35,727 nucleotides of DNA from Nitrospinaceae bacterium (GCA_029261395.1 JAJDBJ010000025.1:1-35727), one strand, 5' to 3'. Positions 16,982 to 31,058 are shown, counted from the stretch's first letter. Numbers and translations are program-made. Notes: generated by a model not told the origin, from the letters alone.

Positions 16982-17404
16982 TTATTTGAAAACCGTCAGC
17001 GGATCTTTTCCTCTTAAAGGATTCTCTCCCAAGTCGATACAGCGCACCCGCATATGGGATTTCGGCCCGAGATTGATGATCACCGCAATATCGTCGAACG
17101 TTAAATCTTCTCTGCCCTGGAACCGGGCAACATTGATCGTCGCCGGCAGATCGAATGCCCGCCTCTCACCCGGTTGTAAAATTTCACTCACAAACACTTT
17201 GCGACCGAGCACGACTTTGAGGTCGGCTTCCTCCTTACCGATGTTTTCGATGAAGAAATCATTGGCGCACCGTTCGGCCTCGCCCGGTTCGATGATACGG
17301 ATTTTTTCCACCTTGGTACTCTTATCCCCCGCCCAAAGACTTGCAGGTGCACCAAAAACCAGCATTAAGGCTAATATATATAAAATGGAAAATTTTCTAT
17401 TCAT
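16982..17404 (-). CDS. Exported protein of unknown function
   Basis: A 140-aa protein with a signal peptide (MNRKFSILYILALMLVFG, cleavage near APASLWA-G). The mature part (VEKIRIIEPGEAERCANDFFIENIG, then RKVFVSEILQPGERRAFDLP) looks like a small all-beta domain with two cysteines. I place the start at 17404, where GGAGG lies 7 bases upstream and the signal peptide begins; an ATG further upstream adds 26 residues of implausible sequence. It is the last minus-strand gene of the accessory region, 207 bases beyond the NTF2-like gene, so it may have its own promoter. Confidence 0.8.
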   Translation of the reverse strand: MNRKFSILYILALMLVFGAPASLWAGDKSTKVEKIRIIEPGEAERCANDFFIENIGKEEADLKVVLGRKVFVSEILQPGERRAFDLPATINVARFQGREDLTFDDIAVIINLGPKSHMRVRCIDLGENPLRGKDPLTVFK

Positions 17405-17611
17405 TGTATATCCTCCAATTGGGGGCGAAATGCACCCATAGTTGGGCTCGCGAGTGAAAAGATGCCAGGAATGAGTCTCCACTCACGGGTCTTAAGGAAC
17501 ATCTATTCTATCAATATGGTCCTGAATCCCCATTTAGCAATGGGTTGAAATCTATGTGTTGGAATTTAAAGTCAAAAACTCGTTCCGGAATGGGGTTACA
17601 GATCAGGTGGT

Positions 17612-18007
17612 TTAACTGGGCAGGGCCACTGCTATCATTGCCGTATCAGCAAACTGCCGAAACCGTTTTACTTTCGAGTGTACGATTTCGTAAAGATGCA
17701 CCGCTGCGGCTTCTATGGTTTTGTGTGTCTGTCGATGTTCCCCCAGATAAGCTCCCACCACGACCACTCGGGAGCCGTCCTCGGATTCGAACATCTCATC
17801 AATCCTGAATTTGAAATAAGTCCAGTCTTTTTCAAATGGGTGGAAAACATTTTTAATGACTTCATCGGCTCCGTGAAAGCGGCCTCCTTTTGGAAAACCC
17901 TCGTTTTGTATCCACTCGATATCTTTGGAGCAGAGGGAACGGAACAAATCGTAGTCTTTGGTTCGAAATGCGTTGTATAGATTTCCAATAATCTCTATCG
18001 ATGACAT
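17612..18007 (-). CDS. NTF2/SnoaL-like protein (second copy in operon A)
   Basis: A 131-aa protein with the SnoaL/NTF2-like alpha+beta cone fold pattern: an N-terminal helix (IIGNLYNAFRTKDYDLFRSL), WIQNEGFPKGGRFHGADEVIKNVF, strand-rich VVVVGAYLGEHRQTHKTIEAA and HLYEIVHSKVKRFRQFADT. Such proteins are small-molecule-binding or isomerase-like enzymes, and the ligand is unknown. I choose the ATG at 18007 (GGA 7 bases upstream); a TTG four codons earlier is in frame. A truncated relative lies at 22000-22107, sharing NAFRTKDYD with nearly identical DNA. It is the last gene of operon A. Confidence 0.85.
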   Translation of the reverse strand: MSSIEIIGNLYNAFRTKDYDLFRSLCSKDIEWIQNEGFPKGGRFHGADEVIKNVFHPFEKDWTYFKFRIDEMFESEDGSRVVVVGAYLGEHRQTHKTIEAAAVHLYEIVHSKVKRFRQFADTAMIAVALPS

Positions 18008-18036
18008 AACTGTTTCCAAAATTTAACCTTATATTA

Positions 18037-18474
18037 TTAAATATGACCTTCCTCCAGGTCCCTGAGATCGGCCCAGGTGATGACATCCGTGCGGGTGGGA
18101 TCGATCTGGTTTCTCTGCTCCAGGAATTCAGCCATGTCTTCGGCGTCCGGTTTTCTATCCAGGATTTTGCGGTTCAAAAGATCCCGTTCCTTCGTGTTCC
18201 GGAAACAGCCGGTTTCCTCCGCCCACTCAGCAATTTGTGCGTTGTCGTTCGTTTCTGCCAAATTCGCGAAATCCTCCGGAGATGTTGCCAGAAAGTTCAA
18301 CACATGCCGGTCAAGCGGGCAGGGATAAATGTATTCCCCCAGAGTGCTATTCCTGAGAGCCCGCGCTTTATCGATCATGCGCGGTAGATGAGCAATGCCC
18401 GCCAGCGTGTCCTTCGAACTTCGGGGCACGGCAGTGTTTAAATTCGGAGCTGTTATTTTTTTTGTAATCGTCAT
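18037..18474 (-). CDS. DUF5069-like protein
   Basis: A 145-aa soluble protein. The segment LAGIAHLPRMIDKARAL, followed by GEYIYPCPLDRHVLNFL, is the hallmark of the DUF5069 family. That family has no established function and often occurs beside NTF2-like and small redox genes. The C-terminal half is charged and helical (AQIAEWAEETGCF, later AEFLEQRNQIDP). GGGAGA precedes the ATG by 6 bases, and the gap to the upstream NTF2-like gene is 16 bases, so both are read from one mRNA. Confidence 0.82.
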   Translation of the reverse strand: MTITKKITAPNLNTAVPRSSKDTLAGIAHLPRMIDKARALRNSTLGEYIYPCPLDRHVLNFLATSPEDFANLAETNDNAQIAEWAEETGCFRNTKERDLLNRKILDRKPDAEDMAEFLEQRNQIDPTRTDVITWADLRDLEEGHI

Positions 18475-18490
18475 GGTGAATCTCCCTTAA

Positions 18491-18898
18491 TTAATGAGCA
18501 TGAAACACTTTGGATGTGATGATCCATGAGCGGTTTTCCTTCAACAGCGTGAACTGGTCCGTGAAGCGGAATCCGAGCCAGTCTGTGATCTCGACCCGCG
18601 CGGTGGCAATGGTTTCCGCGATATCAATGCTGGCGATCCTGGGGTCCAGATTCGGGGCAGGCGGGTTTTCGGTGACCCAGTCGAACAGGAGCTGAATCGG
18701 TCCGGCAAGCAGGCCGCCGCCAATATATCCGTGGATCGTCGCGTTTTTACGAAACGCGCGTTTCATGATCGCCGCATCGCCTCTGCGCCCGCCTTCGGTA
18801 TAAATCTGGATGACGGATGCAATGGCTTCGACATCCTTTTGGTTGTCCGCGCACCTTGACACCGCAGTGTCCTGCATGACGCTATCGATAGAATTCAT
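18491..18898 (-). CDS. NTF2-like / lumazine-binding-type protein
   Basis: A 135-aa protein of the nuclear-transport-factor-2 fold. It has an N-terminal helix ending IQIYTEGGRRGDAAIMKRAF, then FRKNATIHGYIGGGLLAGPIQLLFDWV, and C-terminal strands ARVEITDWLGFRFTDQFTLLKENRSW. The pattern matches the 'putative lumazine-binding' group of small cytosolic proteins in redox and stress operons; the ligand is unknown. AGGAG lies 7 bases before the ATG. It is a distant relative of the NTF2-like gene at 17612-18007. Confidence 0.82.
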   Translation of the reverse strand: MNSIDSVMQDTAVSRCADNQKDVEAIASVIQIYTEGGRRGDAAIMKRAFRKNATIHGYIGGGLLAGPIQLLFDWVTENPPAPNLDPRIASIDIAETIATARVEITDWLGFRFTDQFTLLKENRSWIITSKVFHAH

Positions 18899-18952
18899 GA
18901 TCTTTCTCCTTTTTAATTTTTAAGTTGAGTGAAATGTCTCATTAATTTAATT

Positions 18953-19369
18953 TTAAAATGCGTTTGTGTTCGCCGTGATAGTGGGTTGCCGTTCACCCAT
19001 CCAATATCGGCCAACATCCACCGCATCAATGGCCAGTGAAATGCTATCGAGTGCGATTACGGAAAGCAGCCAATAATAAAAGGGGCCACTTGCTATCGTT
19101 TGACCTAATTGCAGCCCAAGCCAGGGGACGGTGAACAGCCAGGGAAAATGACCAATACCCAGAAGCCTCACATATCCAAATTTTGCAAATAAGGCCGTCA
19201 TGATGAGCAGACCGACTATTGCTGCGACAAGCACTACAATGGCTTCCGGTGTTCCCAGAAAGAAAAATGGTGTAACTATATTTGCTGACACAAGCAGAAC
19301 CATCCATGCCTGCCAGGGTTTTGGTAGGGCGAGAATAGCTTTGTTAAATCCCATCATTGCTTTAAACAT
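18953..19369 (-). CDS. Four-helix integral membrane protein of unknown function
   Basis: A 138-aa membrane protein with four hydrophobic segments at about 20-38 (AWMVLLVSANIVTPFFFLG), 43-65 (AIVVLVAAIVGLLIMTALFA), 75-92 (FPWLFTVPWLGLQLG) and 97-119 (FYYWLLSVIALDSISLAID). No catalytic motif is seen. A strong GGAGG sits 5 bases before the ATG. It lies between PNPOx and the NTF2-like gene in operon A. String B has the exported hydrolase at the corresponding position. Confidence 0.8.
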   Translation of the reverse strand: MFKAMMGFNKAILALPKPWQAWMVLLVSANIVTPFFFLGTPEAIVVLVAAIVGLLIMTALFAKFGYVRLLGIGHFPWLFTVPWLGLQLGQTIASGPFYYWLLSVIALDSISLAIDAVDVGRYWMGERQPTITANTNAF

Positions 19370-19407
19370 GAGCCCCTCCTTTGTTAATTAAAAAGGCCAA
19401 TCAATAT

Positions 19408-20049
19408 TTAAGTGACCTGCGGTTTCCCGGATGATTCAATCCGGTGCCGCAGATTCTTGTTTTCGGATTCCAGCTCCGCGATGCGATCCGTGAGCTCCTG
19501 CTGAGAATCCTTTATCTCCTCCTGCGTGTACCGGGGGGTGATGTGTTGCGGGCAGTTCCAGTCGAACGCATGAACTTTGAACACGATGATCCGTTCCACC
19601 GTAGCTTGGTAATCCGGTACGATCAGTTTTTTCGCCAATTCCGGGTGATCCGCAGGGTCCAGCACTTCAGCTTCTGCCCAGACTTTTAATCTCTGCTTTT
19701 TGGGGTAATCCATCAGGAACAGCATTGTCTTGCTATTGTCGATGAAGTTACCCGTGCTGATGTACTGCCCGTTGCCGCGAAAATCGGCAAACGCCAGTGT
19801 ATTGTCGCCGGTCACCTTCAAAAATCCTTTTGGACCGCCCCGGAATTGCATGTAAGGCCAGCCATTTTCTCCTACAGAAGAAAGATAAAAGCTGTCTCGT
19901 TCTTCAATGTAGCTTCGTTCCTGCCAGGTGAGTTCGTTGCGAAACTTTCCGCCCTTCTCCATTCGCGCATAGGCAGTTCGCGTCCCGTACTTTTCCTGCT
20001 GAACCTTGACGCTGTCAGTAAATGCGAGTTCCGTGAAATTGTCTGTCAT
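19408..20049 (-). CDS. Pyridoxamine-5'-phosphate-oxidase-like flavoprotein, copy A
   Basis: A 213-aa protein of the split-beta-barrel PNPOx-like family, which usually binds FMN or F420 and reduces small substrates. The core motifs FYLSSVGENGWPYMQFRGGPKGFLKV, FADFRGNGQYISTGN and FLMDYPKKQRLKVWAEAEVL are typical. The first 31 residues are identical to copy B at 23152-23721, and by eye about 25 of the first 178 residues differ. Copy A has an extra C-terminal coiled coil (ELTDRIAELESENKNLRHRI). GGGAGG lies 6 bases before the ATG. The substrate is unknown; the enzyme family fits a redox/detoxification role. Confidence 0.88.
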   Translation of the reverse strand: MTDNFTELAFTDSVKVQQEKYGTRTAYARMEKGGKFRNELTWQERSYIEERDSFYLSSVGENGWPYMQFRGGPKGFLKVTGDNTLAFADFRGNGQYISTGNFIDNSKTMLFLMDYPKKQRLKVWAEAEVLDPADHPELAKKLIVPDYQATVERIIVFKVHAFDWNCPQHITPRYTQEEIKDSQQELTDRIAELESENKNLRHRIESSGKPQVT

Positions 20050-20101
20050 GGTGTCCTCCCGGTAATCCTTTCTAGTTCCGTCAGTAATTTTAAGAAAGAG
20101 A

Positions 20102-20136
20102 GGAGAGGGGAATCCTCAACGGGATTACCCCCCTCC
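20102..20136 (-). other. Large intercistronic hairpin between YHS and PNPOx genes
   Basis: GGAGAGGGGAATCC and GGATTACCCCCCTCC form a long stem with small bulges around a six-base loop. No strong T tract follows on the minus strand, so it may slow or process the operon mRNA rather than end it. Confidence 0.5.
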
Positions 20137-20156
20137 TTTTCTAACTGAAACGAGGA

Positions 20157-20681
20157 TTAAAGATCAGCAGGATTTTTGTCCTTGATCTTCGTCCAATTGG
20201 TTTCTGCTTTCACAATGTTTCCGGAAATGTCTTTATTCCAGATTCCCTGAATCTTGTTGTCCAGATTGAGGTAAAGTTTGCCGTTTACGATTTTCCAAAC
20301 ATCAGGATCGCCCACAAACTTCTTGCCCACTGCTGCTCCATAGGCGCAGTAACCGCCAAATTCGGGCAAATATTTGTGAGGATCTTGTGCGAATTTTTCC
20401 TGATTTTCTTTATTTACGAATAAATAGGTGATGCCGTGATGCTCAACAATGTGGTTGCCGTTCCCTCGCAGAGGTTTTTCGGTGGTGCGATAGGACACGA
20501 GGTCATACCCTTGAACACCGACAATACTGTTCGCGATTCCGGTGGTATGTTTTTGACTGCTCATGCCGCCCTCTTTTTTCATCATGTGGTTTTGCCCTGC
20601 ACAGGCGGCACCTGCCGTCAAAATGAACAACAAGGAAAAGATGGCAAAGAAACGGGAACTACCTTTAAGTACGGATTTCAT
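20157..20681 (-). CDS. Exported YHS-domain protein
   Basis: A 174-aa protein with a signal peptide (FFAIFSLLFILTAGAACAG, cleavage near residue 29), a His/Met-rich linker (QNHMMKKEGGMSSQKH), and the YHS-domain core. The core contains GVQGYDLVSYRTTEKPLRGN, ITYLFVNKENQEKFAQDPHKYLP and FGGYCAYGAAVGKKFVGDP, then WKIVNGKLYLNLDNKI. YHS-domain exported proteins are thought to bind metal; some relatives carry selenocysteine at the Cys of GGYCAYG, but here it is ordinary TGC. AGGAG precedes the ATG. It lies 222 bases after dsrE, the widest gap of operon A, so an extra promoter is possible. Periplasmic location contrasts with the cytosolic neighbours. Confidence 0.85.
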   Translation of the reverse strand: MKSVLKGSSRFFAIFSLLFILTAGAACAGQNHMMKKEGGMSSQKHTTGIANSIVGVQGYDLVSYRTTEKPLRGNGNHIVEHHGITYLFVNKENQEKFAQDPHKYLPEFGGYCAYGAAVGKKFVGDPDVWKIVNGKLYLNLDNKIQGIWNKDISGNIVKAETNWTKIKDKNPADL

Positions 20682-20903
20682 GATTAACTCCTTTTGGTTA
20701 GATTTTAAAAGTTATGTTGGTTAATTTTCGAAACGTATGTCACGTTAAAAGTTGATTCCTTATAAATTGATCGAGAAAATTTTTTACAAACTGCATTAAA
20801 ATAATTCGCGAAGACGTTCAAGCCTGCATGATTTTATTTTTTAACGGTCCCGCCCTCGCTGAATCCTGCCTTGCGTACTGTTTTCACTTTCTCCGACAAT
20901 AAT

Positions 20904-21278
20904 TTAAAACGTCATGACGGTATAGCCTTCGGATCGCAGTCTTTGCAGACTGGCCATGCCGCCGGTATTGGGGACTGGATTGTCCTTGACCAGATCACAG
21001 CCCGACTTCTCGGCGTCTTCGGTAGCACCGAAGGCATCTGCACAACCGCACGAAACTCCGGCGATCTTGTCCTTGACTGCTTCGAACAGCTCATGCGCGG
21101 GGTTTTTGGATCGGGAAAGTTCAGCAGGCCAGCGTGTGCCGGTTCCTTGAAACAGGATGGTCACATCGTCGCCCTTCTGTTTGAAGTCGTACGCCGAGGC
21201 CAGTCCATTGAACGCACGACCGAATGCTTCCTCGCCGCCATTTTTTGGATCGGAAAGAATAATGATTGCAGTTTTCAT
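20904..21278 (-). CDS. DsrE-family sulfur-relay protein, copy A
   Basis: A 124-aa DsrE/DsrF-fold protein: MKTAIIILSDPKNGGEEAFG, the helix FNGLASAYDFKQKGDDVTILFQGTG, HELFEAVKDKIAGVSCGCADAFG and a C-terminal LRSEGYTVMTF. The CxC pair (VSCGC) is at the site where DsrE-type proteins carry persulfide. The ATG overlaps the tetR stop (ATGA), with AGGAG inside the tetR end, so it is translationally coupled to the regulator. It is a paralogue of 24179-24541 (by eye about 60% identical), which has CAC in the same place. Sulfur transfer or redox sensing is an inference from the family. Confidence 0.87.
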   Translation of the reverse strand: MKTAIIILSDPKNGGEEAFGRAFNGLASAYDFKQKGDDVTILFQGTGTRWPAELSRSKNPAHELFEAVKDKIAGVSCGCADAFGATEDAEKSGCDLVKDNPVPNTGGMASLQRLRSEGYTVMTF

Positions 21279-21877
21279 GATTTGTTACTCCTTTTGGTTT
21301 TAGGTTTAGGTTTTTCTGAGTCGAGTGTTAATAGTTCCGGTAAGTTCTGGAGGACCCGTAGAAACGGTTGGGTTTCGCCGGTGGCTCGCGCCATGACCAA
21401 CGCCCCCTGGATACGAACCAACGCTTCTTCAGCTCGAAGTTTGGCAGTAGCCGGACTCAAACCTGACTCGCGTGCAACGCCCACGAGTGCGCCAAGCCAA
21501 GCCGTGAACGACCGATCAATATGCTGACGTATGGCGACATCCTCGTCACCCAGCGATAGCGAATCGAGCAGACACGAGTGATGACCCCCGCCGTAAAAAT
21601 CACTGAGGCGGTTAGCCATTTCATGGACGCGGTCCGAGGGCTCCCCGGGCTCGGTCAGAGGCACGAGGATGTGAGATACGAACCAGGTGTCGGCCCGCTG
21701 GAGTACGGCTTCGGCCATTTCCTTCTTCCCACCCGGAAAGCGGTGGTAAAGACTGGCGCGCTTGAGTCCGGTTGCTTCCGAAATGCGGCTGAGGCTTGCG
21801 CCTTCATAACCGTACAAGCGGAAGACTTCCGTTAGGCGATCCAGTAATTGACCCTCATCGATTTTTCTAACAGGCAT
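21275..21877 (-). CDS. TetR/AcrR-family transcriptional repressor
   Basis: A 200-aa regulator with the TetR helix-turn-helix in residues about 8-55 (LLDRLTEVFRLYGYEGASLSRI, then EATGLKRASLYHRFPGGKKEM). The C-terminal ligand domain contains GGGHHSCLLDSLSLGDED and LRAEEALVRIQGALVMARATGE, as in LmrA/YxaF-type members. AAGGAGG lies 6 bases before the ATG. Its own promoter is covered by a perfect palindrome, so it is autoregulated and, through coupling to dsrE, controls operon A. The ligand is unknown; the family usually senses small hydrophobic or electrophilic compounds. Confidence 0.9.
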   Translation of the reverse strand: MPVRKIDEGQLLDRLTEVFRLYGYEGASLSRISEATGLKRASLYHRFPGGKKEMAEAVLQRADTWFVSHILVPLTEPGEPSDRVHEMANRLSDFYGGGHHSCLLDSLSLGDEDVAIRQHIDRSFTAWLGALVGVARESGLSPATAKLRAEEALVRIQGALVMARATGETQPFLRVLQNLPELLTLDSEKPKPKTKRSNKS

Positions 21878-21917
21878 ATTTCAATCCTCCTTCACTCAGT
21901 TTAAGAACTCAGCGAGT

Positions 21918-21946
21918 ACTTTACCGAACGTTCGGTAAAGAGTCAA
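21918..21946 (-). promoter_or_regulatory. tetR promoter overlapped by a palindromic operator
   Basis: Minus-strand -35 TTGACT (21941-21946) and -10 TAAAGT (21918-21923) are separated by exactly 17 bases. A 22-bp perfect palindrome with core ACCGAACGTTCGGT spans 21919-21940, filling the spacer and the -10. This is the classic arrangement for a TetR autorepressor. No second copy of the palindrome was seen in the window. Confidence 0.85.
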
Positions 21947-21999
21947 GGGTTTTTTTGGCCTTTTTTTTAAATTTTTTTAGGCCCCACTCAGAAACCTAT

Positions 22000-22107
22000 T
22001 TAATTATTTAAAAACAATATCTTATAAAGCCTAACGGATATTAAATGATCGTAGTCTTTGGTTCGAAATGCGTTGTACAAAATTTTAATGATCTGAATGG
22101 ATGTCAC
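22000..22107 (-). pseudogene. Truncated NTF2/SnoaL-like gene remnant
   Basis: From a GTG at 22107 the frame reads VTSIQIIKILYNAFRTKDYDH. This aligns with the first residues of the NTF2-like gene at 17612-18007 (MSSIEIIGNLYNAFRTKDYDL). The DNA over TCGTAGTCTTTGGTTCGAAA is identical in both. After TKDYD the similarity stops and the frame runs to a stop after 35 codons. It occupies the last position of string B, as the intact copy does in string A. Confidence 0.8.
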
Positions 22108-22132
22108 ATTGCTTCTTAGTGTTACTACTGTG

Positions 22133-23131
22133 TTATTTGATATTGTGCTTGGCCAGGAACCGGAGAATATGTTCTGCAATGGCATCTCCCTCTTCCTCTA
22201 AAGCAAAATGGCCTGTATTGAGTAAATAAAAATCGATGTTCTTTAGATCCTTCTTGTAAGCATGAGCTCCTTCCGATGGAAAGATGTGATCATTCTTCCC
22301 CCAGACGATCAAAGTGGGCGGCTGGTGTTTGCGGAGATAGGCCTGCCATTTCGGATAAAGAGCAACATTGGTGCGATAGTCGTAGAACATGGCTAACTGG
22401 ATGGCATTGTTCTCAGGCCGGGTCAAATGTTGTAAATCAATATTCCAATTATCCGGACTGATTGTTTCAACATTTTGCACGCCATGCGTATACTGCCATT
22501 TCAATCCATCAGGGGAATGAAATCCTTCCAGCGCCTTCCCGTTGCCAGCCGTGTATTCGTTCCAGTATTTTTTGATAGGGACCCAAAATTTCCTGAGACC
22601 TTCCTCGTAAGCGCCGCCATTTTGCACGATCAGGGACTCTACCCGGTCCGGATATTTGGCGGCAATTCGATAACCAATGGGAGCGCCGTAGTCCATCAGG
22701 TAAACACTGAATTTCTCAACGTGCAAAGCTTCTAAAAAGCCTTCCACAATCTTTGACATATTGTCGAACGTATATGCAAAATCGGCCATCGGCGGCTGTT
22801 CACTTCTGCCATATCCGGGATAATCGGGAGCCAGCAAGTGATAACGATGGGACAAATCTTCTATGAGATTGCGAAACATGTGCGAAGAAGTGGGGTACCC
22901 ATGCAGTAGCAAGAGGGTCGGGGCATTTTTGGAGCCGGCTTCACGATAAAATATTTTCACTCCATTCACTTCAATCGTTTTGTGAAGCGTGGCATGGTGC
23001 CCAAGGAGTTTTACATTGTTAACCGATGAAGCATTCTTATGAGCCACCGTACCGGTGTTTGAGCCGTAAGCGTATCCCGCAATTAAAACCGTTATTGCAA
23101 TAGCCAACCATTGAACTGTAATTTTGTTCAT
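22133..23131 (-). CDS. Exported alpha/beta hydrolase (haloalkane-dehalogenase / epoxide-hydrolase type)
   Basis: A 332-aa protein with a signal peptide (VQWLAIAITVLIAGYAYG, cleavage near residue 23), then an alpha/beta-hydrolase domain. Visible elements are the oxyanion HGYPTSSHMF, DYPGYGRSEQP, the nucleophile elbow YLMDYGAPIG with Asp in place of Ser, the acid in VWGKNDHIF, and the catalytic His in NTGHFALEEE. An Asp nucleophile is typical of haloalkane/haloacetate dehalogenases and epoxide hydrolases, not of esterases. The ATG at 23131 is chosen (AGGAG 6 bases upstream) over one 7 codons earlier that would overlap PNPOx. It is the last intact gene of string B. The substrate is unknown. Confidence 0.88.
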   Translation of the reverse strand: MNKITVQWLAIAITVLIAGYAYGSNTGTVAHKNASSVNNVKLLGHHATLHKTIEVNGVKIFYREAGSKNAPTLLLLHGYPTSSHMFRNLIEDLSHRYHLLAPDYPGYGRSEQPPMADFAYTFDNMSKIVEGFLEALHVEKFSVYLMDYGAPIGYRIAAKYPDRVESLIVQNGGAYEEGLRKFWVPIKKYWNEYTAGNGKALEGFHSPDGLKWQYTHGVQNVETISPDNWNIDLQHLTRPENNAIQLAMFYDYRTNVALYPKWQAYLRKHQPPTLIVWGKNDHIFPSEGAHAYKKDLKNIDFYLLNTGHFALEEEGDAIAEHILRFLAKHNIK

Positions 23132-23151
23132 TGTGTTCTCCTTTGTTCTCA

Positions 23152-23721
23152 TTAAGAGGTTGCAAGATTCACCAGGCCCCGTTCAACTTCTTCCTGCGTG
23201 TACCGGGGGGTGATGTGTTGCGGACAGTTCCAGTCGAACGCATGAACTTTGAATACGATGATTCGCTCCACCGTAGCTTGGTAATCCGGTACGATCAGTT
23301 TTTTTGCCAATTCCGGATGTTCCGCCGGGTCCAGCACCTCGGCTTCCGCCCAGATTTTCAATCTTTGCTTTTGGGTGTAATCCATGAGAAATAGAACCGT
23401 CTTCCTGGTGGCGTTAATATTTCCGGTGCTGATGTATTGTCCGTTGCCGCGAAAATCAGTAAACGCCAGGGTGTTGTCGTCGATCACCTTCAGGAACCCT
23501 TTGGGACCGCCCCGGAACTGCATGTAAGGCCAACCGTTTTCACCGACAGAGGCCATGTAGAAACCGTCCCTGTCTTCGATATGTCTTTGCTCCTGCCAGG
23601 TGATCTGGTTGCGAAACTTTCCGCCCTGCTCCATGCGTGCATAGGCGGTTCGCGTCCCGTACTTTTCCTGCTGAACCTTGACGCTGTCAGTAAATGCAAG
23701 TTCCGTGAAATTATCAGTCAT
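23152..23721 (-). CDS. Pyridoxamine-5'-phosphate-oxidase-like flavoprotein, copy B
   Basis: A 189-aa split-barrel flavoprotein, paralogue of 19408-20049. It shares the complete N-terminus (MTDNFTELAFTDSVKVQQEK) and the C-terminal HAFDWNCPQHITPRYTQEE, with more changes in the middle (SFYLSS to GFYMAS, NFIDNSKTM to NINATRKTV). It lacks the coiled-coil tail of copy A and ends with ERGLVNLATS. The DNA is nearly identical at the 5' end and over the WNCPQH region but diverges between them, a pattern that could reflect gene conversion. AGGAG precedes the ATG. It lies between thioredoxin and the exported hydrolase in string B. Confidence 0.88.
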   Translation of the reverse strand: MTDNFTELAFTDSVKVQQEKYGTRTAYARMEQGGKFRNQITWQEQRHIEDRDGFYMASVGENGWPYMQFRGGPKGFLKVIDDNTLAFTDFRGNGQYISTGNINATRKTVLFLMDYTQKQRLKIWAEAEVLDPAEHPELAKKLIVPDYQATVERIIVFKVHAFDWNCPQHITPRYTQEEVERGLVNLATS

Positions 23722-23752
23722 GACCTTCTCCTTTTAAGGACTCCTTTTTCAA

Positions 23753-24100
23753 TTAAAGATGACTTTCGATGATACCGGCGATTTTATCTTTGGGTTGCAC
23801 GCCCACGATCTGTTGCACTAACTGCCCGTCTTTGAACAGCAACAATGCCGGGATACCGCGAATCCCGTATTTGTGGGTGGTCACCGGGTTGGCGTCGACG
23901 TCCACTTTCGCGATCAGGACGCGGTCGCCGTATTCTTCTGCCAGCGTTTCTATGGTTGGAGCCATCATGTGGCAGGGTTGACACCAGTCGGCCCAGAAAT
24001 CGACCAACGCCAGTTTTTTGGATTGGATCACCTCTGTTTCAAAGCCATCGTCATCCAGATGGACCACTGCATTGTTTGTGACTACGTTTTCCTGATTCAT
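23753..24100 (-). CDS. Thioredoxin-like protein with WCQPC active site
   Basis: A 115-aa cytosolic thioredoxin-fold protein. VDFWADWCQPCHMMAPTIE holds the redox pair in a CQPC form rather than the classical CGPC, which should shift its redox potential. The cis-Pro loop GIRGIPALLLFKDG is standard. The ATG at 24100 (AGGAG 5 bases upstream) is preferred over one 7 codons earlier. It probably supplies reducing power or thiol exchange for the DsrE and PNPOx neighbours (inference from operon context). The general cell thioredoxin could instead be elsewhere. Confidence 0.92.
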   Translation of the reverse strand: MNQENVVTNNAVVHLDDDGFETEVIQSKKLALVDFWADWCQPCHMMAPTIETLAEEYGDRVLIAKVDVDANPVTTHKYGIRGIPALLLFKDGQLVQQIVGVQPKDKIAGIIESHL

Positions 24101-24144
24101 CGTGTCTCCTTTCATGTTCATTCCAATATGGGATTAATTTTGGA

Positions 24145-24170
24145 AACCCCCTGCGAAACGCAGGGGGGTT
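24145..24170 (-). other. Intercistronic hairpin after dsrE copy B
   Basis: AACCCCCTGCG-AAA-CGCAGGGGG forms a near-perfect stem between dsrE and the thioredoxin gene. The following T stretch (TTTCCAAAATT) is weak, so it may only partly terminate and set the expression ratio. Confidence 0.55.
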
Positions 24171-24178
24171 GGCAGCTT

Positions 24179-24541
24179 TTAAAACGTAAGGACGTTAAAA
24201 CCGTCTTCCTGAAGCTTACTCAGGCTCGGCAGTCCGGTAGTTTTTGGAACGGAGTTGTCCTTGATCAGGTCGTATCCCGTGGTATCGGCGCCGAATACCT
24301 CGGCACAGGCACAAGAGATGCCCTGGATCTTGTCCGCGACCGCTTCAAACAATTCATGCGCGGGATGATCTTTCTTTTGCAGGACTTCCGGCCAACGTGT
24401 GCCGGCGCCCTGAAAGAGAATAGAGACTTCCTTACCGGCGTTCTTGAAATCGTAAGCCGATGCCAGACCGTTGAACACGCGTCCTAAAGATTCTTCAGAA
24501 TTGTTTTTTGGATCGGACAGAATGATGATTGCAGTTTTCAT
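24179..24541 (-). CDS. DsrE-family sulfur-relay protein, copy B
   Basis: A 120-aa DsrE-fold protein, paralogue of 20904-21278. It starts with the same MKTAIIILSDPKN and has FNGLASAYDFKNAGKEVSILFQGAG and HELFEAVADKIQGISCACAEVFG, giving the reactive-cysteine motif CAC. It lies 68 bases after the isochorismatase-like gene and is read from the sigma-54 promoter. By family it is a persulfide carrier or sensor; its partner could be the adjacent thioredoxin. Confidence 0.87.
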   Translation of the reverse strand: MKTAIIILSDPKNNSEESLGRVFNGLASAYDFKNAGKEVSILFQGAGTRWPEVLQKKDHPAHELFEAVADKIQGISCACAEVFGADTTGYDLIKDNSVPKTTGLPSLSKLQEDGFNVLTF

Positions 24542-24609: not shown

Positions 24610-25302
24610 TTAAGAAACCGCGGCTACGGTTTCCTGTTGGGACAGGGCCGCCACGGCTTCCTCGGTGGACCAAACGGTATTGGCCAGAAAACGGAAATTG
24701 ACCAGGGCCGCGTCGTAGCCGTTGCCTTCCGGAACTTTGGCGGCGGCGGTGGCATCTTTCACCACGGCCACCTCAAAACCCTGTTCGAGGAGTTCCCGCA
24801 AATGGCTTTCGACACAGAGGTTGGCCGACATTCCGGCCAGCACCACTTTGTCGATTCCGCGCTTTCGCAATTGGAGGACGAGATCGTTGGTTTCCGGTCC
24901 ATAAACTTTATGAGGACTCACCACCACGGTGTTTTCGTTCTCGATATAATGCTTGTACTGCTCCAGCCAATCGGGACCCGACCCGTTGAAATTTTCAAGA
25001 TTCAAGGGACCCTTGCGGTCGAACATATGGATGTCGTGCATCAGCTTTTCGAGCGCGCCCTCAAACTTCCAACGATGGTCGGTCGGGTAGTAGTAATGCG
25101 GCGAAACGAAAAGCGGGATGCCGTTGTCCTGCGCAGCCTTGAATAGCGATTCGATATTGGCGACCGTGTTGTTTTCCGTAACGCTCTCGCCGACCACGCC
25201 CCAGGTCACGCCCTGCGGACTCAAAAAATCGTTTTGGGGATCGGTGACCACCAGTGCCGTGTTGGTTGTGTCGATTTGCATACCGGGATTGGGAAGTGCC
25301 AT
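24610..25302 (-). CDS. Isochorismatase-like cysteine hydrolase
   Basis: A 230-aa hydrolase of the isochorismatase-like superfamily. The catalytic triad is visible: Asp in ALVVTDPQNDFLSP, Lys in VVVSPHKVYGPETND and Cys in LAGMSANLCVESHLREL. The cis-peptide-type segment VLAGMSANLC is typical. Family members hydrolyse amides (nicotinamidase, N-carbamoyl hydrolases, ureidoacrylate) or isochorismate, and the substrate here cannot be named. AGGAG precedes the ATG. It is the first gene of string B, 83 bases after the sigma-54 promoter and divergent to the activator gene. Confidence 0.9.
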   Translation of the reverse strand: MALPNPGMQIDTTNTALVVTDPQNDFLSPQGVTWGVVGESVTENNTVANIESLFKAAQDNGIPLFVSPHYYYPTDHRWKFEGALEKLMHDIHMFDRKGPLNLENFNGSGPDWLEQYKHYIENENTVVVSPHKVYGPETNDLVLQLRKRGIDKVVLAGMSANLCVESHLRELLEQGFEVAVVKDATAAAKVPEGNGYDAALVNFRFLANTVWSTEEAVAALSQQETVAAVS

Positions 25303-25384: not shown

Positions 25385-25402
25385 AGCAGGTCCCGTGCCA
25401 AA
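25385..25402 (-). promoter_or_regulatory. Sigma-54 (-24/-12) promoter of string B
   Basis: On the minus strand TTGGCACGGGACCTGCTC has a perfect TGGCACG -24 element and a TGC -12 element. GG (25399-25398) and GC (25387-25386) are exactly 10 bases apart. It faces the isochorismatase-like gene. The activator gene at 25533 is divergent, so the shared spacer (25403-25532) should hold the enhancer site; it contains CTATTT-TT-AAATAG flanked by TAAC and GTTA. Confidence 0.9.
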
Positions 25403-25532
25403 CCGGATTTATTTAGTAACTATCTATTTTTAAATAGGTTATAGGGATTAAGAGCGGTCTTGATTTATGGCGAAAATTCGTTAATAGCGAAATTTAGTGG
25501 TCATGTTACGAAATTTGGGATATATTGGGGGC

Positions 25533-27017
25533 ATGAAATCGGATTCTGAAAACAAAACGGAACCTGCGGATCAGGCCTTGGAAGGGGTCCGACACCTGAA
25601 CAAGCTGATTCTGGAATCGGCGGGTGAGGGTGTGTATGGCCTGGACGGTGAAGGTAAGACCACCTTTGTGAATCCTGCCGCGGAACGCATGACCGGGTAC
25701 ACCGCCAGGGAGATGATCGGGCACTGCCAGCATAAACTGGTTCACCATTCAAAACCCGACGGAACGACCTACATTGATAAAGAGTGTCCCATTTATGCGG
25801 CGGTCAAGGATGGCAAAGTCCATACGGTTTCCAATGAAGTATTCTGGCGCAAAGACGGCACCTCGTTTCCGGTGGAGTATGTCAGCACCCCCATTTGGGA
25901 AAATCTGAAATTGCGCGGAGCGGTGGTTGTGTTCAAGGACATCAGCGAACGCAAACAGGCGGAGGAGGAAATCCAGTGCCTGCGCCGTAAACTGGAGTTG
26001 GAAAATGCCTACCTGCATGAAGAGGTCCTGGAAGCTAAAGCGTATGGCGAAATTGTCGGCAGCAGTCCGGCCCTGGAGGGCATTTTGCGGCAAATCGATA
26101 TGGTGGGGCCGACCGATGCCAGCGTACTGATTACCGGCGAGTCGGGTACCGGCAAGGAACTGGTCGCGCGGGAGATTCACAATCGTAGCGCCCGCAAACA
26201 ACGCACCATGATCAAAGTCAATTGCGCCTCCATCCCCAAAGAGCTGTATGAAAGCGAATTCTTCGGACATGTCAAAGGCGCGTTCACCGGAGCGATCAAG
26301 GACCGGGCGGGTCGATTCCAACTGGCCGATGGCGGGACGTTGTTCCTCGACGAGATCGGGGAAGTGCCGTTGGATCTGCAGAGCAAACTACTGCGCGTTT
26401 TGCAGGAAGGCACATATGAACGCATCGGCGATGAAAAAACGCTCAAGACCGATGTGCGCATCATTGCCGCCACCAACCGCAACTTGAAAGAAGAAGTGTT
26501 GGCGAAACGGTTCCGCGAAGACCTGTTTTACCGTCTCAATGTATTCCCGATAGAAGTGCCGCCCCTGCGACAGAGGATCGAAGATATCCCCAGCCTGGCG
26601 AACCGTTTTTTGAATCAGGCCGCCAGCAAATTGAACCTGCCGCTTCCCCAATTCACCAAGGCCAATATGCTGGAGCTGAAAGGCTACGACTGGCCGGGCA
26701 ATGTGCGGGAACTGCAGAACGTGATCGAGCGCGCCGTCATCACCTCACGGTCCGGCAAACTGGCGTTCAACCTGACCCAGGAACCAAAGGGCAATGGGAG
26801 GCAAGGGAAAGCGGAACGGCGGCGGGCGTCCGATGCTGAAACACCCGTCTTGACGGAAGAGGAAATGAAACAGAGGGACCGCGAGAATATTTTGAACGCC
26901 CTCGATCAAAGCGGCTGGAAAATTACCGGTGACGGTGGCGCGGCGGAAATCCTGGGAATGAAACCCACCACCCTGCACTCCAAGATCAAAAAACTCGGCC
27001 TCAAAAAACCGGATTAG
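25533..27017 (+). CDS. PAS-domain sigma-54-dependent transcriptional activator (bEBP)
   Basis: A 494-aa bacterial enhancer-binding protein. Residues about 17-130 are a PAS domain ([33 protein letters not shown] with the following [11 protein letters not shown]). A coiled-coil linker leads to an AAA+ domain with Walker A GESGTGKE (~202), the sigma-54 contact loop GAFTGA (~249), Walker [11 protein letters not shown] (~267) and [10 protein letters not shown]. The C-terminus is a Fis-type helix-turn-helix ([20 protein letters not shown]). There is no receiver domain, so it senses directly, perhaps through the Cys/His-rich PAS. I use the ATG at 25533; in-frame ATG 25503 and GTG 25497 are alternatives. 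It almost certainly activates string B and perhaps the 14.3-kb promoter. Confidence 0.95.
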
Positions 27018-27028
27018 TTGGATTTTCC

Positions 27029-27067
27029 TTGACAAAAATCTCAATGTATATATATTGTATATACATT
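27029..27067 (+). promoter_or_regulatory. mazEF promoter with MazE-type operator
   Basis: TTGACA (27029-27034) and TATATT (27051-27056), 16 bases apart, form a strong promoter. A perfect inverted repeat AATGTATATA-TATTG-TATATACATT (27043-27067) covers the -10 and start region, as expected for autorepression by MazE or MazE-MazF. Confidence 0.8.
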
Positions 27068-27090
27068 AAAACAACTGGCGGAGATGAAAC

Positions 27091-27327
27091 ATGGATGCGA
27101 TGGTGAACCCCTGGGGTAACAGTCTCGGCTTGAGAATCCCCAAAACCTTTGCTAAGGAAATTGGGTTAAAGAAAGGTACCAAGGTTAAAATGACCTTAGT
27201 GAAGGGTAAGCTGGTGATTCAACGGGCGGGCAAGGCTTCCCTGAAAGCGCTAGTGGATGAAATTACCCCGGAAAACTCTTATGAGGAAATGGATTTCGGC
27301 GGTGCCGAAGGACGAGAGGTATGGTAG
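27091..27327 (+). CDS. mazE: MazE-type antitoxin (AbrB-fold)
   Basis: A 78-aa antitoxin with an N-terminal SpoVT-AbrB DNA-binding fold (MVNPWGNSLGLRIPKTFAKEI, then GLKKGTKVKMTLVKGKLVIQ). An acidic C-terminal tail (DEITPENSYEEMDFGGAEG) wraps the toxin in this family. GGAG lies 7 bases before the ATG. It overlaps mazF by 7 bases, the usual toxin-antitoxin coupling. Confidence 0.94.
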   Translation: MDAMVNPWGNSLGLRIPKTFAKEIGLKKGTKVKMTLVKGKLVIQRAGKASLKALVDEITPENSYEEMDFGGAEGREVW

Positions 27328-27674
27328 CCCGTAAAAAGTATGTGCCGGATCGGGGACACATTATTTGGGTGGACTTTAACCCCCAGGCCGGGCACGAGCA
27401 GGCGGGACATCGTCCTGCCTTGGTAATATCCCCAAAACTCTATAACGAAAAATCCGGTCTGGCGATTTGTTGTCCGATCACATCCAAAGTGAAGAACTAT
27501 CCGTTTGCGGTAGAGTTATCTAAAAAACTGGGCGGTGGGTGTGTACTGGCCGATCAGGTCAAAAGCCTCGACTGGCGGATTCGCCACGCCAAATTAAAAT
27601 CCAAAGCCCCGCCCAAACTCCTCACCGAAGTCCTCGAAAAGCTCGAAATTCTTATTTTAGGTATTGAAGATTGA
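27321..27674 (+). CDS. mazF: MazF-type endoribonuclease toxin
   Basis: A 117-aa mRNA interferase of the PemK/MazF family: YVPDRGHIIWVDFNPQAGHEQAGHRPALV holds the catalytic Arg region, followed by CCPITSKVKNYPFAVEL and VLADQVKSLDWR (conserved Ser/Thr-Asp area), then LEKLEILILGIED. Length and motifs are complete, so it is probably active. It cleaves specific RNA sequences when not bound by MazE. The pair sits in a duplicated insertion spot (see the mosaic scar at 27703-27929). Confidence 0.95.
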   Translation: MVARKKYVPDRGHIIWVDFNPQAGHEQAGHRPALVISPKLYNEKSGLAICCPITSKVKNYPFAVELSKKLGGGCVLADQVKSLDWRIRHAKLKSKAPPKLLTEVLEKLEILILGIED

Positions 27675-27702
27675 ATATGGTTTGATGGAAGTACGTTTTG
27701 TA

Positions 27703-27888
27703 TTATTTTTTTCGAATTCCCCAAACCAGCACCAGATAAAACGGAATGTATTCGAACCAGGGGATCCACGGGGCGTAGTGGTTGATATCCTGATAATCGA
27801 AATAGAAGTCGAGGTAGTAGAGTCCGACGAGGCCCGGTCAGTAGAATCCCGGCGCGCCAGGGGAAGATGCACAGGAACGGCACCACCC
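27703..27888 (-). pseudogene. Degenerate 3' end of the GT-C-type membrane glycosyltransferase gene
   Basis: This copies the last part of the gene at 29553-31058. The minus-strand frame reads VPFLCIFPWRAGILLTG, then after a one-base insertion near 27825-27835 resumes as YYLDFYFDYQDINHYAPWIP and ends IRKK-stop at 27703. Many differences from the intact gene are synonymous (TAC/TAT, GAC/GAT, CCC/CCG), so it derives from a diverged allele rather than a fresh copy. It is joined at CACCACCC (27881-27888) to a copy of the activator-gene 3' end. Confidence 0.85.
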
Positions 27889-27929
27889 TGCACTCCAAGA
27901 TCAAAAAACTCGACCTCAAAAAACCGTAA
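27881..27929 (+). pseudogene. Degenerate copy of the activator-gene 3' end
   Basis: TGCACTCCAAGATCAAAAAA and the following bases repeat 26974-27012 of the sigma-54 activator gene, giving [15 protein letters not shown]-stop. One Gly is replaced by Asp and the last codons differ (CCGTAA against CCGGAT). It is fused directly to the glycosyltransferase fragment to its left. Confidence 0.85.
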
Positions 27930-27990
27930 TGAACTCTCGTGTTTTATCGCTATTCGTATCTTTAAGTTTATGAAAACTATCCTATAAACT

Positions 27991-29451
27991 TTATTTTAGT
28001 GCATCACCTTCTAATAATGGCTCCTCGATTTCCGATTGGGACAACCAGAAACAAGCCAATGGGGCAGGGATTTTTAAAAAAGTGGTATTGGTTTGAGTAA
28101 TTTTTTCCGGAATCACGTCGAAATCTGAAAACTCTCTGGTAATGATATATCCTCTTGGCAGGTTCTTTTCTTTACAAAGTTGAACCAAGCCTTTGATGTC
28201 CTGCATTTTAATATGGCTTTGCGTATATTTTACTTCGAAAGGAATTATGTCATTGTGAACCTCCGCCACAATATCCACTTCATAATTCTTTTTAGATTTC
28301 CAATAAGAAAATCGGATACTGATAGGATAATATCTGCTGTAGACATGCTTAAAAAAGGCTGTTTCAACAGCCGCGCCTAACCGAGTGTTGTCTTCAATTA
28401 ATGACCTTCCCTTTAAAAGTACACTTCCTGCAATAGCCGCGTCAGCCAGATAAACTTTGTATTTACCACGCAATACTTCTTTCCCGTAACCATAGGGAGG
28501 TAATTTGTAAATTAGATGTGCTGACTCGAACAATTCGATGAAGTTGCTGACTGTTTGTTTGTTCAATTCAAGATTGCGGCACAGAGTCGGCAAATCTAGA
28601 ATCCCTCCGTCGTGCAAACATAAATAGAGAAAAGTTTTCTCCATTTCCAATACCCGCCGCACTCCATAGAGCGCAGTCATATCTCGTTTTAAAACCTTAT
28701 CCACGATATCTTCCCGCAAGAGTCTTTGAGCGGTTGATATATTTTCTACTTGTGCCGTTTGAGGAAAACCTCCGCGAAGAAGGTATTCATTGAAATACGG
28801 CTCCAAAGGGCGTGCTGTTTCGCTCAATTGAATTCGTTTTTCAGGCGACCATGAAAATATTTCTTTGAGTGTTTTGATTTTCGGAAGTCGTGGAATTGCG
28901 ATATTTTTGATTTGCAGATATTCATAAAATGAAAGGGTCGGAAGTTTTATAGTGTGCCACCGGCCCACCCCGGACTCTTGATCTTTGGTGTTCAAGGGCG
29001 TGGCTGATCCAGTGACTGCGATCCGCCTTTTTTTTTGGAAATCCGCCTGATGTTTTAACCAGGTCGGCCAATTCTCGGTGTATTGAATTTCATCAAGCAA
29101 TAAATATTCTATTCCCTCTGAGGGAGGTTGGATTTCCTTCCAAGATTTAAGAACCTGTTCGAGTCCGATCAGCTTTGTTATGGGGTGGTCAAAGGTAATA
29201 TAAAGTATTCGATCAGGGCTAACCCCCTGGTCCAGTAATTCTTCGATCGCCTGGAGAAGCAAAGTTGTCTTTCCAACTTGCCTCGCCCCACTTAATAAAA
29301 TGGCCCGTGGCGCTGGCGGATCGGTCAGCCAGCCCATTAGTGGTTTAAAAGCGGCTCTTCTCCATAATGGAAGATCAGGTATTTTCCTCTCATCCCACCA
29401 TGGATTAAATTGCCGTAGAATTGCAAAAAGCTCAGATTTTGATACAATCAT
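27991..29451 (-). CDS. AAA+ ATPase with DUF4143 (archaeal-type ATPase family)
   Basis: A 486-aa protein with an N-terminal AAA domain: Walker A ILLSGARQVGKTTLLLQ, Walker B GIEYLLLDEIQYTENW and a sensor-like RRIAVTGSATPL. The C-terminal half has a winged-helix-like LPTLCRNLELNKQTVSNFIEL and the DUF4143 core (YKVYLADAAIAG, then FSYWKSKKNYEVDIVAEVH, IIPFEVKYTQS), which resembles a nuclease fold (D...E-x-K). Such genes are common on mobile or accessory DNA; their function is uncertain, and toxin-antitoxin-like or defence roles have been suggested. The sequence is visibly more A/T-rich than its neighbours, suggesting transfer. It lies in the second half of the duplicated insertion spot. Confidence 0.9.
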   Translation of the reverse strand: MIVSKSELFAILRQFNPWWDERKIPDLPLWRRAAFKPLMGWLTDPPAPRAILLSGARQVGKTTLLLQAIEELLDQGVSPDRILYITFDHPITKLIGLEQVLKSWKEIQPPSEGIEYLLLDEIQYTENWPTWLKHQADFQKKRRIAVTGSATPLNTKDQESGVGRWHTIKLPTLSFYEYLQIKNIAIPRLPKIKTLKEIFSWSPEKRIQLSETARPLEPYFNEYLLRGGFPQTAQVENISTAQRLLREDIVDKVLKRDMTALYGVRRVLEMEKTFLYLCLHDGGILDLPTLCRNLELNKQTVSNFIELFESAHLIYKLPPYGYGKEVLRGKYKVYLADAAIAGSVLLKGRSLIEDNTRLGAAVETAFFKHVYSRYYPISIRFSYWKSKKNYEVDIVAEVHNDIIPFEVKYTQSHIKMQDIKGLVQLCKEKNLPRGYIITREFSDFDVIPEKITQTNTTFLKIPAPLACFWLSQSEIEEPLLEGDALK

Positions 29452-29552
29452 ACTTAATACTCTTATAGAGTTAATTTAAGCATAGTATACCATTCTTATT
29501 TATGAAAAATAAGTATATTTTTAGAAAAATATGGTGATTATTGCGAGATAAC

Positions 29553-31058
29553 TCAAGCCTTTGTGTAGAGACCTTTATTTTTAAACCATTCCCACGCTAG
29601 AAATAAATAAAATGGAATGTATTCGAACCAGGGGATCCAGGGGGCGTAGTGGTTGATGTCCTGGTAGTCGAAGTAGAAATCGAGGTAGTAGAGGCCAACC
29701 AGTCCGGTCAATAGAATCCCCGCGCGCCAGGGGAAGATGCACAGGAACGGCACCACCCAGCACAGGTACCAGGGATTCTGCACCGGACTCACCAGAAACA
29801 CCAGCGCCATGATAATGAACAGTGGTTCCAGCACCGCTTTGGGTTCCGGGTTCTCAATCTCTTTTCGCCAGAACAGCAAATACAGCATGACCACGCCGAG
29901 AATCCCTGCCACGGTGATTTTGGCCAGCAGGGACGGCAGGTCGTAGGAGAAGGGGACGGGTCCGTTCGACTCCGCAAACAGTCCGAAGAACCAGACAAGA
30001 ATCGCAAAAATGCTGTCGTTCTGTTGCCAGCGCGTGGCGTAGGCTTTGAGACCGGAAAAATTTTGCGAGCCGATCTCAAGAAACGGCATGTAGAAAAACG
30101 CGACGAGTCCCCCGAACAATAAAATGCTCAATCCGCACCGCACCCAGCGGTTTTGAATTTTGGAGTCCGCCGCTTGATACTGTTGTTTGAGGATGAGCGG
30201 CAGTAAAATGGCGGGGTACAGTTTGCCCACCACACTGAGCGCGAGAAACGCATTGGCTGAAAAGAACCGTCGCTGGACCACGCAGAACAATGTGCCGCAC
30301 AGCATGGCGATGCCGATGATATCGAGGTGCGTCGAGTTGAACGTCTCCTTGATCACCAGCGGACACCAGAAATACACCATCGCCCACAGCCGGTTCATCC
30401 CCAGTGCCTGCAGGGTCAATACGATGAACATCAACGCCACCCCATCGAACGCCAGAAACAGGAGGCGCAGGGTGAGGATGCTATCGGGTTGAATCTGATG
30501 CGCCAGCCGGAACATCATTTGCGCCAGTGGTGGATAGATGGTCGCCACGCTGGGATGGTTGATGCGTTCCTGATACACCAGCGTTTCCGGGCTTTCCCAT
30601 TTCAGATCGTAGAGTTGGGACAGCTCCGCCGCGCTTTGGGTATCGTACATCTGCTCAAACGCCTCCGGGTCCTGGATGAGCAATTCCTTGAGGCGCGTTA
30701 CCTCCTCCGGCGCGAACTTGTAGGGGTTGATGTTATGAGCAAAGACCTTGCCATCCCACAAATAACGATACACATCGTCTTCCTGAATCTGTTGCGCGGG
30801 CATGATGGCGGCACGGAACAGCAGGCCGAGTACGATCAGCGTCCATAGCAGGCGGTGGTCGTCCACCGTCCGTTTCCAGATGATCCACACCGCCCCGGCA
30901 TAACTGGCAAACAGGCTGAAATAGATCGCCAGGTAGGTCAGGATGGGGCGGTCGCGGTAACCCTCCCCCCAGTTGAACTGGTAGGAAATCTGCCACATCG
31001 CCAGGTACAGGACGATGCTGAGGATGCCGAGGGGGATCAAGAGGATTCGTGGTCGCAT
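29553..31058 (-). CDS. Multi-spanning GT-C-type glycosyltransferase (mannosyltransferase-like)
   Basis: A 501-aa inner-membrane protein with about ten to twelve hydrophobic segments. The first periplasmic loop has the acidic motif QIQEDDVYRYLWDGKVFAHNINPYKFAP, a hallmark of GT-C polyprenyl-phosphate-mannose-type transferases (DUF2029/GT87-like). Other landmarks are HPSVATIYPPLAQ, LVIKETFNSTHLDIIGIAML, KLYPAILLPLIL and VFLVSPVQNPWYLCWVVPF. It likely transfers a sugar from a lipid carrier to a cell-surface glycan or lipid; donor and acceptor are unknown. A diverged copy of its 3' end lies at 27703-27888. Confidence 0.88.
   Translation of the reverse strand: MRPRILLIPLGILSIVLYLAMWQISYQFNWGEGYRDRPILTYLAIYFSLFASYAGAVWIIWKRTVDDHRLLWTLIVLGLLFRAAIMPAQQIQEDDVYRYLWDGKVFAHNINPYKFAPEEVTRLKELLIQDPEAFEQMYDTQSAAELSQLYDLKWESPETLVYQERINHPSVATIYPPLAQMMFRLAHQIQPDSILTLRLLFLAFDGVALMFIVLTLQALGMNRLWAMVYFWCPLVIKETFNSTHLDIIGIAMLCGTLFCVVQRRFFSANAFLALSVVGKLYPAILLPLILKQQYQAADSKIQNRWVRCGLSILLFGGLVAFFYMPFLEIGSQNFSGLKAYATRWQQNDSIFAILVWFFGLFAESNGPVPFSYDLPSLLAKITVAGILGVVMLYLLFWRKEIENPEPKAVLEPLFIIMALVFLVSPVQNPWYLCWVVPFLCIFPWRAGILLTGLVGLYYLDFYFDYQDINHYAPWIPWFEYIPFYLFLAWEWFKNKGLYTKA

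Follow-up and report, generated by a model that had tools for sequence, protein, structure and literature searches.

A DsrE-flavoprotein locus of a Nitrospinota genome under sigma-54 and TetR control, probably rebuilt in steps rather than duplicated as a module

Two neighbouring gene strings of a Nitrospinaceae genome, each carrying a DsrE and a PNPOx gene, are best explained (probability roughly 0.7) as one operon locus that was rebuilt several times and brought under two-switch control, rather than as two copies of a module. This reading builds on the observed anatomy, gene trees, synteny and conservation of an operator and a promoter. The window, meaning the whole 35,727-nt stretch analyzed (GCA_029261395.1 JAJDBJ010000025.1:1-35727), is one complete contig of a 2.9-Mb Nitrospinota genome, whose nearest named relative among those compared is Nitrospinaceae bacterium PL23a_bin.2. 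A preliminary description of the window had derived both strings from segmental duplication of one ordered module and had proposed one core under two sensory inputs. The two-inputs idea was borne out by promoter and operator conservation at loci well beyond the window, and is broader than could be seen from the window alone. Duplication of the whole module was not upheld, as DsrE_A and DsrE_B are placed far apart in the trees and differ by a 4-residue indel; what survives of it is a partial tandem PNPOx-SnoaL duplication, supported by the PNPOx pair and a SnoaL stump. A locus can thus mimic a duplicated module though assembled from cassettes.

Both strings lie on the minus strand. In order, string A comprises TetR, DsrE_A, YHS, PNPOx_A, membrane protein, Lumazine_bd_2, DUF5069 and SnoaL_2 genes; string B comprises isochorismatase, DsrE_B, thioredoxin (Trx), PNPOx_B and exported alpha/beta hydrolase genes, with a PAS-AAA+-Fis sigma-54 activator (bEBP) divergent from it (Table 1). 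The kinds and positions assigned earlier to the DsrE, PNPOx, SnoaL_A, YHS, membrane, DUF5069, Trx, hydrolase, TetR and sigma-54 activator genes were confirmed. Pfam backs all string genes named there with the exception of the membrane protein; the YHS protein scores below the Pfam cut-off and above the NCBIfam cut-off. The list of interleaved genes was correct and incomplete, string A also holding the Lumazine_bd_2 gene and string B the isochorismatase gene. An NTF2-like gene placed at 22000 proved to be an ORF (22000-22185) of which only 59 nt (22048-22106) correspond to the SnoaL_A 5' end, the remainder being unrelated; the third member in B is this remnant, and the two strings do not contain the same genes in order.

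Table 1. Features of the two gene strings and their borders, in window coordinates.
Feature	Position	Strand	Basis or remark
Conserved exported protein P140, locus flank	16982..17482	-	70-79% in G001, G003, G005, G007, same border
SnoaL_2 protein, putative intact end of ancestral tail	17612..18019	-	Pfam PF12680 44 bits
DUF5069 protein	18037..18474	-	Pfam PF16798 104 bits; 90% G001, 80% G006
Lumazine_bd_2 (NTF2-fold) protein	18491..18898	-	Pfam PF12893 81 bits; 80% in G001
Small membrane protein	18953..19369	-	matches no Pfam family
PNPOx_A, split-barrel flavoprotein with C-terminal helix	19408..20049	-	fold match; inside genus PNPOx clade
Exported YHS-domain protein of cassette	20157..20681	-	NCBIfam NF041384 133 bits; 86% in G001
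DsrE_A, foreign-type DsrE	20904..21278	-	sequence identity, PF02635
TetR repressor of cassette	21275..21877	-	Pfam TetR_N + TetR_C_13_2
TetR operator TACCGAACGTTCGGTA, between -35 and -10	21922..21937	.	perfect site, conserved upstream of TetR
SnoaL 5' remnant, putative duplicated-tail stump	22048..22106	-	59 nt, 83% to 17948-18006, E 2.7e-12
Exported alpha/beta hydrolase	22133..23152	-	Pfam PF00561 112 bits; starts at PNPOx_B stop
PNPOx_B, split-barrel flavoprotein without C-terminal helix	23152..23721	-	Pfam PF01243 30.3 bits
Thioredoxin	23753..24121	-	Pfam PF00085 111 bits
DsrE_B, native Nitrospinota DsrE	24179..24541	-	clade + 4-aa deletion
Isochorismatase-family hydrolase, first gene of sigma-54 string	24610..25302	-	Pfam PF00857 100 bits
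Sigma-54 -24/-12 promoter TGGCACGGGACCTGC	25386..25400	-	site conserved at activator-linked loci
PAS + sigma-54 AAA+ activator + Fis HTH (bEBP), divergent	25497..27017	+	Pfam PF00158 242 bits, PAS, HTH_8

The DsrE pair (65% aa identity, dS about 2) is more diverged than the PNPOx pair (83%), as had been noticed earlier. This is the reverse of what family rates predict, because DsrE is the slower of the two in the order (DsrE_B is 78-88% identical to other genera, PNPOx 61-76%). In the DsrE tree (102 proteins, FastTree, including 80 loci from other phyla), DsrE_B belongs to a clade of 20 members, all from Nitrospinota (support 1.0), and DsrE_A groups with Nitrospirota proteins (support 0.74); the patristic distance from DsrE_A is 0.98 to DsrE_B and 0.43 to locus L079. 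The order-wide DsrE_B clade leaves out DsrE_A and its counterpart in genome G001, to which DsrE_A is 98% identical, the next best matches (73%) being in Nitrospirales and Phycisphaerae. A-type DsrE was found in 2 of 77 Nitrospinota genomes, those of the window and G001. All sampled B-type proteins share the 4-residue deletion, and DsrE_A and other phyla keep these residues. Cysteines C77 and C79 are invariant. The same DsrE type occurs in cultured Nostoc, Calothrix and Variovorax, the Calothrix copies retaining TetR and operator.

The locus is bordered as in relatives, by P140/HtpX and by a 519-aa membrane protein; string A's tail therefore occupies the position of the relatives' single tail, and TetR-DsrE_A-YHS looks like a cassette that was inserted. 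G007 has the row 519-aa protein, TetR, DsrE_B, Trx, SDR, PNPOx, SnoaL, P140, HtpX, headed by another TetR (30%, TetR_C_13; L060:5679-6281) that replaces the sigma-54 activator and isochorismatase. SnoaL directly follows PNPOx there and follows DUF5069 in G006. G001 runs from the 519-aa protein through bEBP, isochorismatase, DsrE_B, Trx, SDR and a 2Fe-2S protein to TetR, DsrE_A, YHS, its sole PNPOx, Lumazine_bd_2, hydrolase, DUF5069 and P140. The window's bEBP, which contains the GAFTGA motif, is 90% identical to that of G001, and its TetR is 93% identical to that of G001 and 79% to that of G026 (clade support 100). Isochorismatase orthologues (89-93%) are present in G001, G003, G004 and G006, and the Trx position is kept in these genomes and in G007. 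Going 5' from TetR, the window and G001 are strongly homologous across the promoter and operator; the homology fades further out, where the window (G000) has the SnoaL stump and an unrelated 2Fe-2S gene stands in G001. That gene (L059:10618-11127) is a lone 2Fe-2S thioredoxin-like (NuoE-type) gene between SDR and TetR. G004 and G006 hold the B string with one PNPOx. Because a number of the related genomes are assembled in fragments, little can be read into genes missing from G003, G004 and G006; in the rpoB comparison G004 was misplaced (partial gene) and left out. G005 (95% complete) has neither DsrE nor PNPOx, its row being 519-aa protein, bEBP scar, P140. The scar (L190:8910-9026) matches the last 39 bEBP codons (75 nt at 94.7%, E 9e-29) and, read as the trace of a deletion, implies that the module was once present there. 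Within one genus the locus is thus seen in a series of forms: the simple operon, the operon with the cassette, the operon with both cassette and partial duplicate, and a deletion that left a scar.

From these comparisons we infer the following direction and order of events. The ancestral operon would have been sigma-54-driven, with the activator followed by isochorismatase, DsrE_B, Trx, SDR, PNPOx and SnoaL. A TetR-DsrE_A-YHS cassette with its own operator would have been inserted ahead of PNPOx in the branch shared by the window and G001; in the window's lineage, the PNPOx-SnoaL tail would have been partly doubled beside Trx, giving PNPOx_B without a helical tail, the hydrolase and the SnoaL stump. 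Insertion and partial duplication would together leave the native tail behind the TetR cassette, and the native DsrE with the second PNPOx under sigma-54, each string being presumably co-transcribed. Since TetR operons in a different genus (G026, G050) also have string A's membrane and lumazine-like genes, the incoming DNA may have exceeded TetR-DsrE-YHS. The membrane gene follows PNPOx in G033, G026, G050 and G013 and comes one gene later in G028. As this TetR is common to another Nitrospinota genus, it may have moved independently of DsrE_A.

The PNPOx copies (83% aa, 82% nt, dS 0.85) both fall among the genus PNPOx sequences, in trees that are weakly supported for so short a gene, and appear from these trees to be younger than the split of the genus from its sisters; the homologue trees proposed earlier as a check on the age of the duplication thus give a recent answer for PNPOx and distant clades for DsrE. 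PNPOx_B is without the C-terminal helix that its relatives in the genus have. An adjacent paralogue and a remnant lie in the order of a tail that is single in relatives, as in a partial tandem PNPOx-SnoaL duplication, and PNPOx_B and the stump read as such a copy, whose end may have been overwritten by the hydrolase gene, absent from the corresponding place in genus relatives. The earlier remark that the PNPOx genes are close and most alike at both ends was correct (dS 0.37 and 0.42 at the ends, 2.06 in the middle). The contrast is partly general, PNPOx_A and its G004 orthologue also being uneven along the gene (dS 0.67/1.93/0.41), and its use as strong evidence of conversion was dropped. When segments picked after seeing the data were analyzed separately, the ends (codons 1-45 and 121-177) joined A and B (UFB 96), with alternatives rejected (AU 0.003-0.048), and the middle placed A with G004, G006 and G007 (UFB about 80), with A and B as sisters not rejected (AU 0.149). 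A GENECONV-like test gave p 0.006 for the longest silent identical run, uncorrected for 15 pairs. The segment comparison suggested for detecting conversion was therefore significant in joining the ends and not significant in the conflict of the middle, and gene conversion between the copies is suggested, short of proof.

A single in-place segmental duplication of DsrE-PNPOx-NTF2, followed by different insertions and faster DsrE divergence, would account for three gene kinds in the same order and strand and for the part of the row that is doubled in the PNPOx pair and the stump. It is nevertheless very improbable, as the DsrE and PNPOx pairs differ in history: the slower family is the more diverged, the Nitrospinota deletion is missing from DsrE_A, which groups with proteins of other phyla, and the pairs are unequal in age, that of DsrE being older than the order or foreign. 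Transfer or exchange of string A in full, TetR through SnoaL_A, as one operon from another Nitrospinota lineage to a place beside B, with PNPOx converted afterwards, has a model in G026 and G033 of another family, whose TetR(76-78%)-DsrE-PNPOx-membrane-lumazine-like/DUF5069 rows have a near-identical gene set, with B-type DsrE headed by that TetR. The joining of the PNPOx ends, the pairing of the PNPOx_A middle with G004, G006 and G007, and the silent run would also fit. This course of events is unlikely all the same, since PNPOx_A lies in the genus clade and not with G026 or G033, the tail adjoins P140-HtpX exactly like G007's single tail, and the middle of PNPOx is compatible with A and B as sisters. 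The stepwise rebuilding of one locus is thus preferred.

Both switches of the locus are conserved elsewhere. Of the activator-linked loci scanned across the phylum, 15 in all, 14 have the site TGGCAC-N5-NTGC between activator and first gene, the fifteenth having a weaker TGGCAT-N5-CTGC with one mismatch more; no -24/-12 site was found in the six TetR-type upstream regions tested. With a GAFTGA-bearing AAA+ activator and a -24/-12 promoter, string B qualifies as a sigma-54-dependent operon. The palindrome TACCGAACGTTCGGTA is the genome's only perfect site; in the 250 nt lying 5' of TetR, with up to 3 mismatches allowed, it recurs at 32/37 TetR-DsrE loci from several phyla, and none of 740 shuffles reached 3 mismatches. 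With a TetR_N HTH and a palindromic operator at its own promoter, the string A regulator has the features of a TetR repressor. Promoter and terminator scans gave no excess over shuffles; the TetR promoter was among the calls, and the operator is better evidence than this predicted promoter. In the gap between YHS and PNPOx_A (20045-20160) there is inverted-repeat-like sequence, of similar form and different sequence in G001, which may be a partial terminator dividing cassette from tail.

Companions of the module vary. Of the 77 loci outside near relatives, 62 have DsrE followed within 1.5 kb by a PNPOx-like gene of the same strand, often a larger, distant form of about 23-38% identity, and four others are truncated by a contig edge; a TetR gene accompanies 34 and a sigma-54 activator 10. 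LysR-type genes are near some further module copies. The TetR and DsrE trees conflict; regulators and cores are exchanged among loci.

Each component resembles a known system and departs from it. DsrE_A matches the DsrE/DsrF-like family (PF02635, 28.0 bits against a cut-off of 22.7; DsrEFH, TusBCD) and shares conserved cysteines; the DsrE_B model matches the fold weakly, best with 3mc3 (TM 0.60, E 2.7e-3) and DsrEFH 2hy5 (TM 0.56), and a PDB sequence search with DsrE returned nothing useful. Unlike in DsrEFH/TusBCD, the constant partner in the strings is a split-barrel protein and the motif is SCxC; the annotation of the two strings includes no DsrF, DsrH, TusB/C or DsrC/TusE partner. The PNPOx fold search gave 73 PDB matches at E <= 0.001, nearly all split-barrel among the matches listed, with PNPOx_A matching 2htd (E 8.6e-8) and HupZ (E 2.6e-7), and by fold it belongs to the FMN split-barrel superfamily. 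COG3576/HupZ/F420-type proteins share the fold and a weak sequence match (2htd, 5esc, 3f7e), whereas the window's proteins have extra N-terminal helices and PNPOx_A a long C-terminal helix. Assignment to the vitamin B6 enzyme PdxH was rejected (27.0 bits for A and 30.3 for B against a cut-off of 28.1; no C-terminal dimerization domain found). The TetR is like LmrA/YxaF-like repressors in its TetR_N and TetR_C_13_2 domains and a palindromic operator over the promoter, and differs in the operator itself, which is common across phyla to DsrE-linked repressors. The bEBP shares domains, GAFTGA and a conserved -24/-12 target with PAS-AAA+-Fis activators, differing in that its target operon is DsrE-PNPOx.

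Wide distribution of a DsrE-flavoprotein module is indicated, and as its repressor site is defined in sequence, the inducer, and hence the function, becomes directly testable. It is close to an even call, leaning slightly against, that DsrE and the split-barrel flavoprotein form an undescribed inducible redox module of many phyla, with the regulator, a sigma-54 activator or one of different TetR families, swapped in place and one TetR operator across phyla, the window then combining both circuits with native genes behind a foreign switch; no description of a DsrE-PNPOx module was found in the literature searched, with incomplete coverage and few terms. Given the accompanying Trx, SDR, hydrolases and NTF2-fold proteins, small-molecule-induced redox detoxification is offered tentatively as the likeliest role, itself short of probable: the flavoprotein would reduce or oxidize the small molecule, with DsrE (C77, C79) as carrier of thiol or sulfane sulfur and the interchangeable neighbours acting on the products. 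Sulfur transfer proper is less likely because the strings are without DsrF/H/C partners.

A separate rearrangement was seen at the other border. Where the sigma-54 activator gene and the gene for the 519-aa membrane protein converge, their 3' junction is partly doubled (26943-29771), fragments at 27734-27893 and 27881-27926 repeating the 3' ends of both genes; of the gaps between the repeats, one holds a PemK/MazF-like toxin gene (27321-27674) and the other an AAA_14/DUF4143 ATPase gene (27991-29451).
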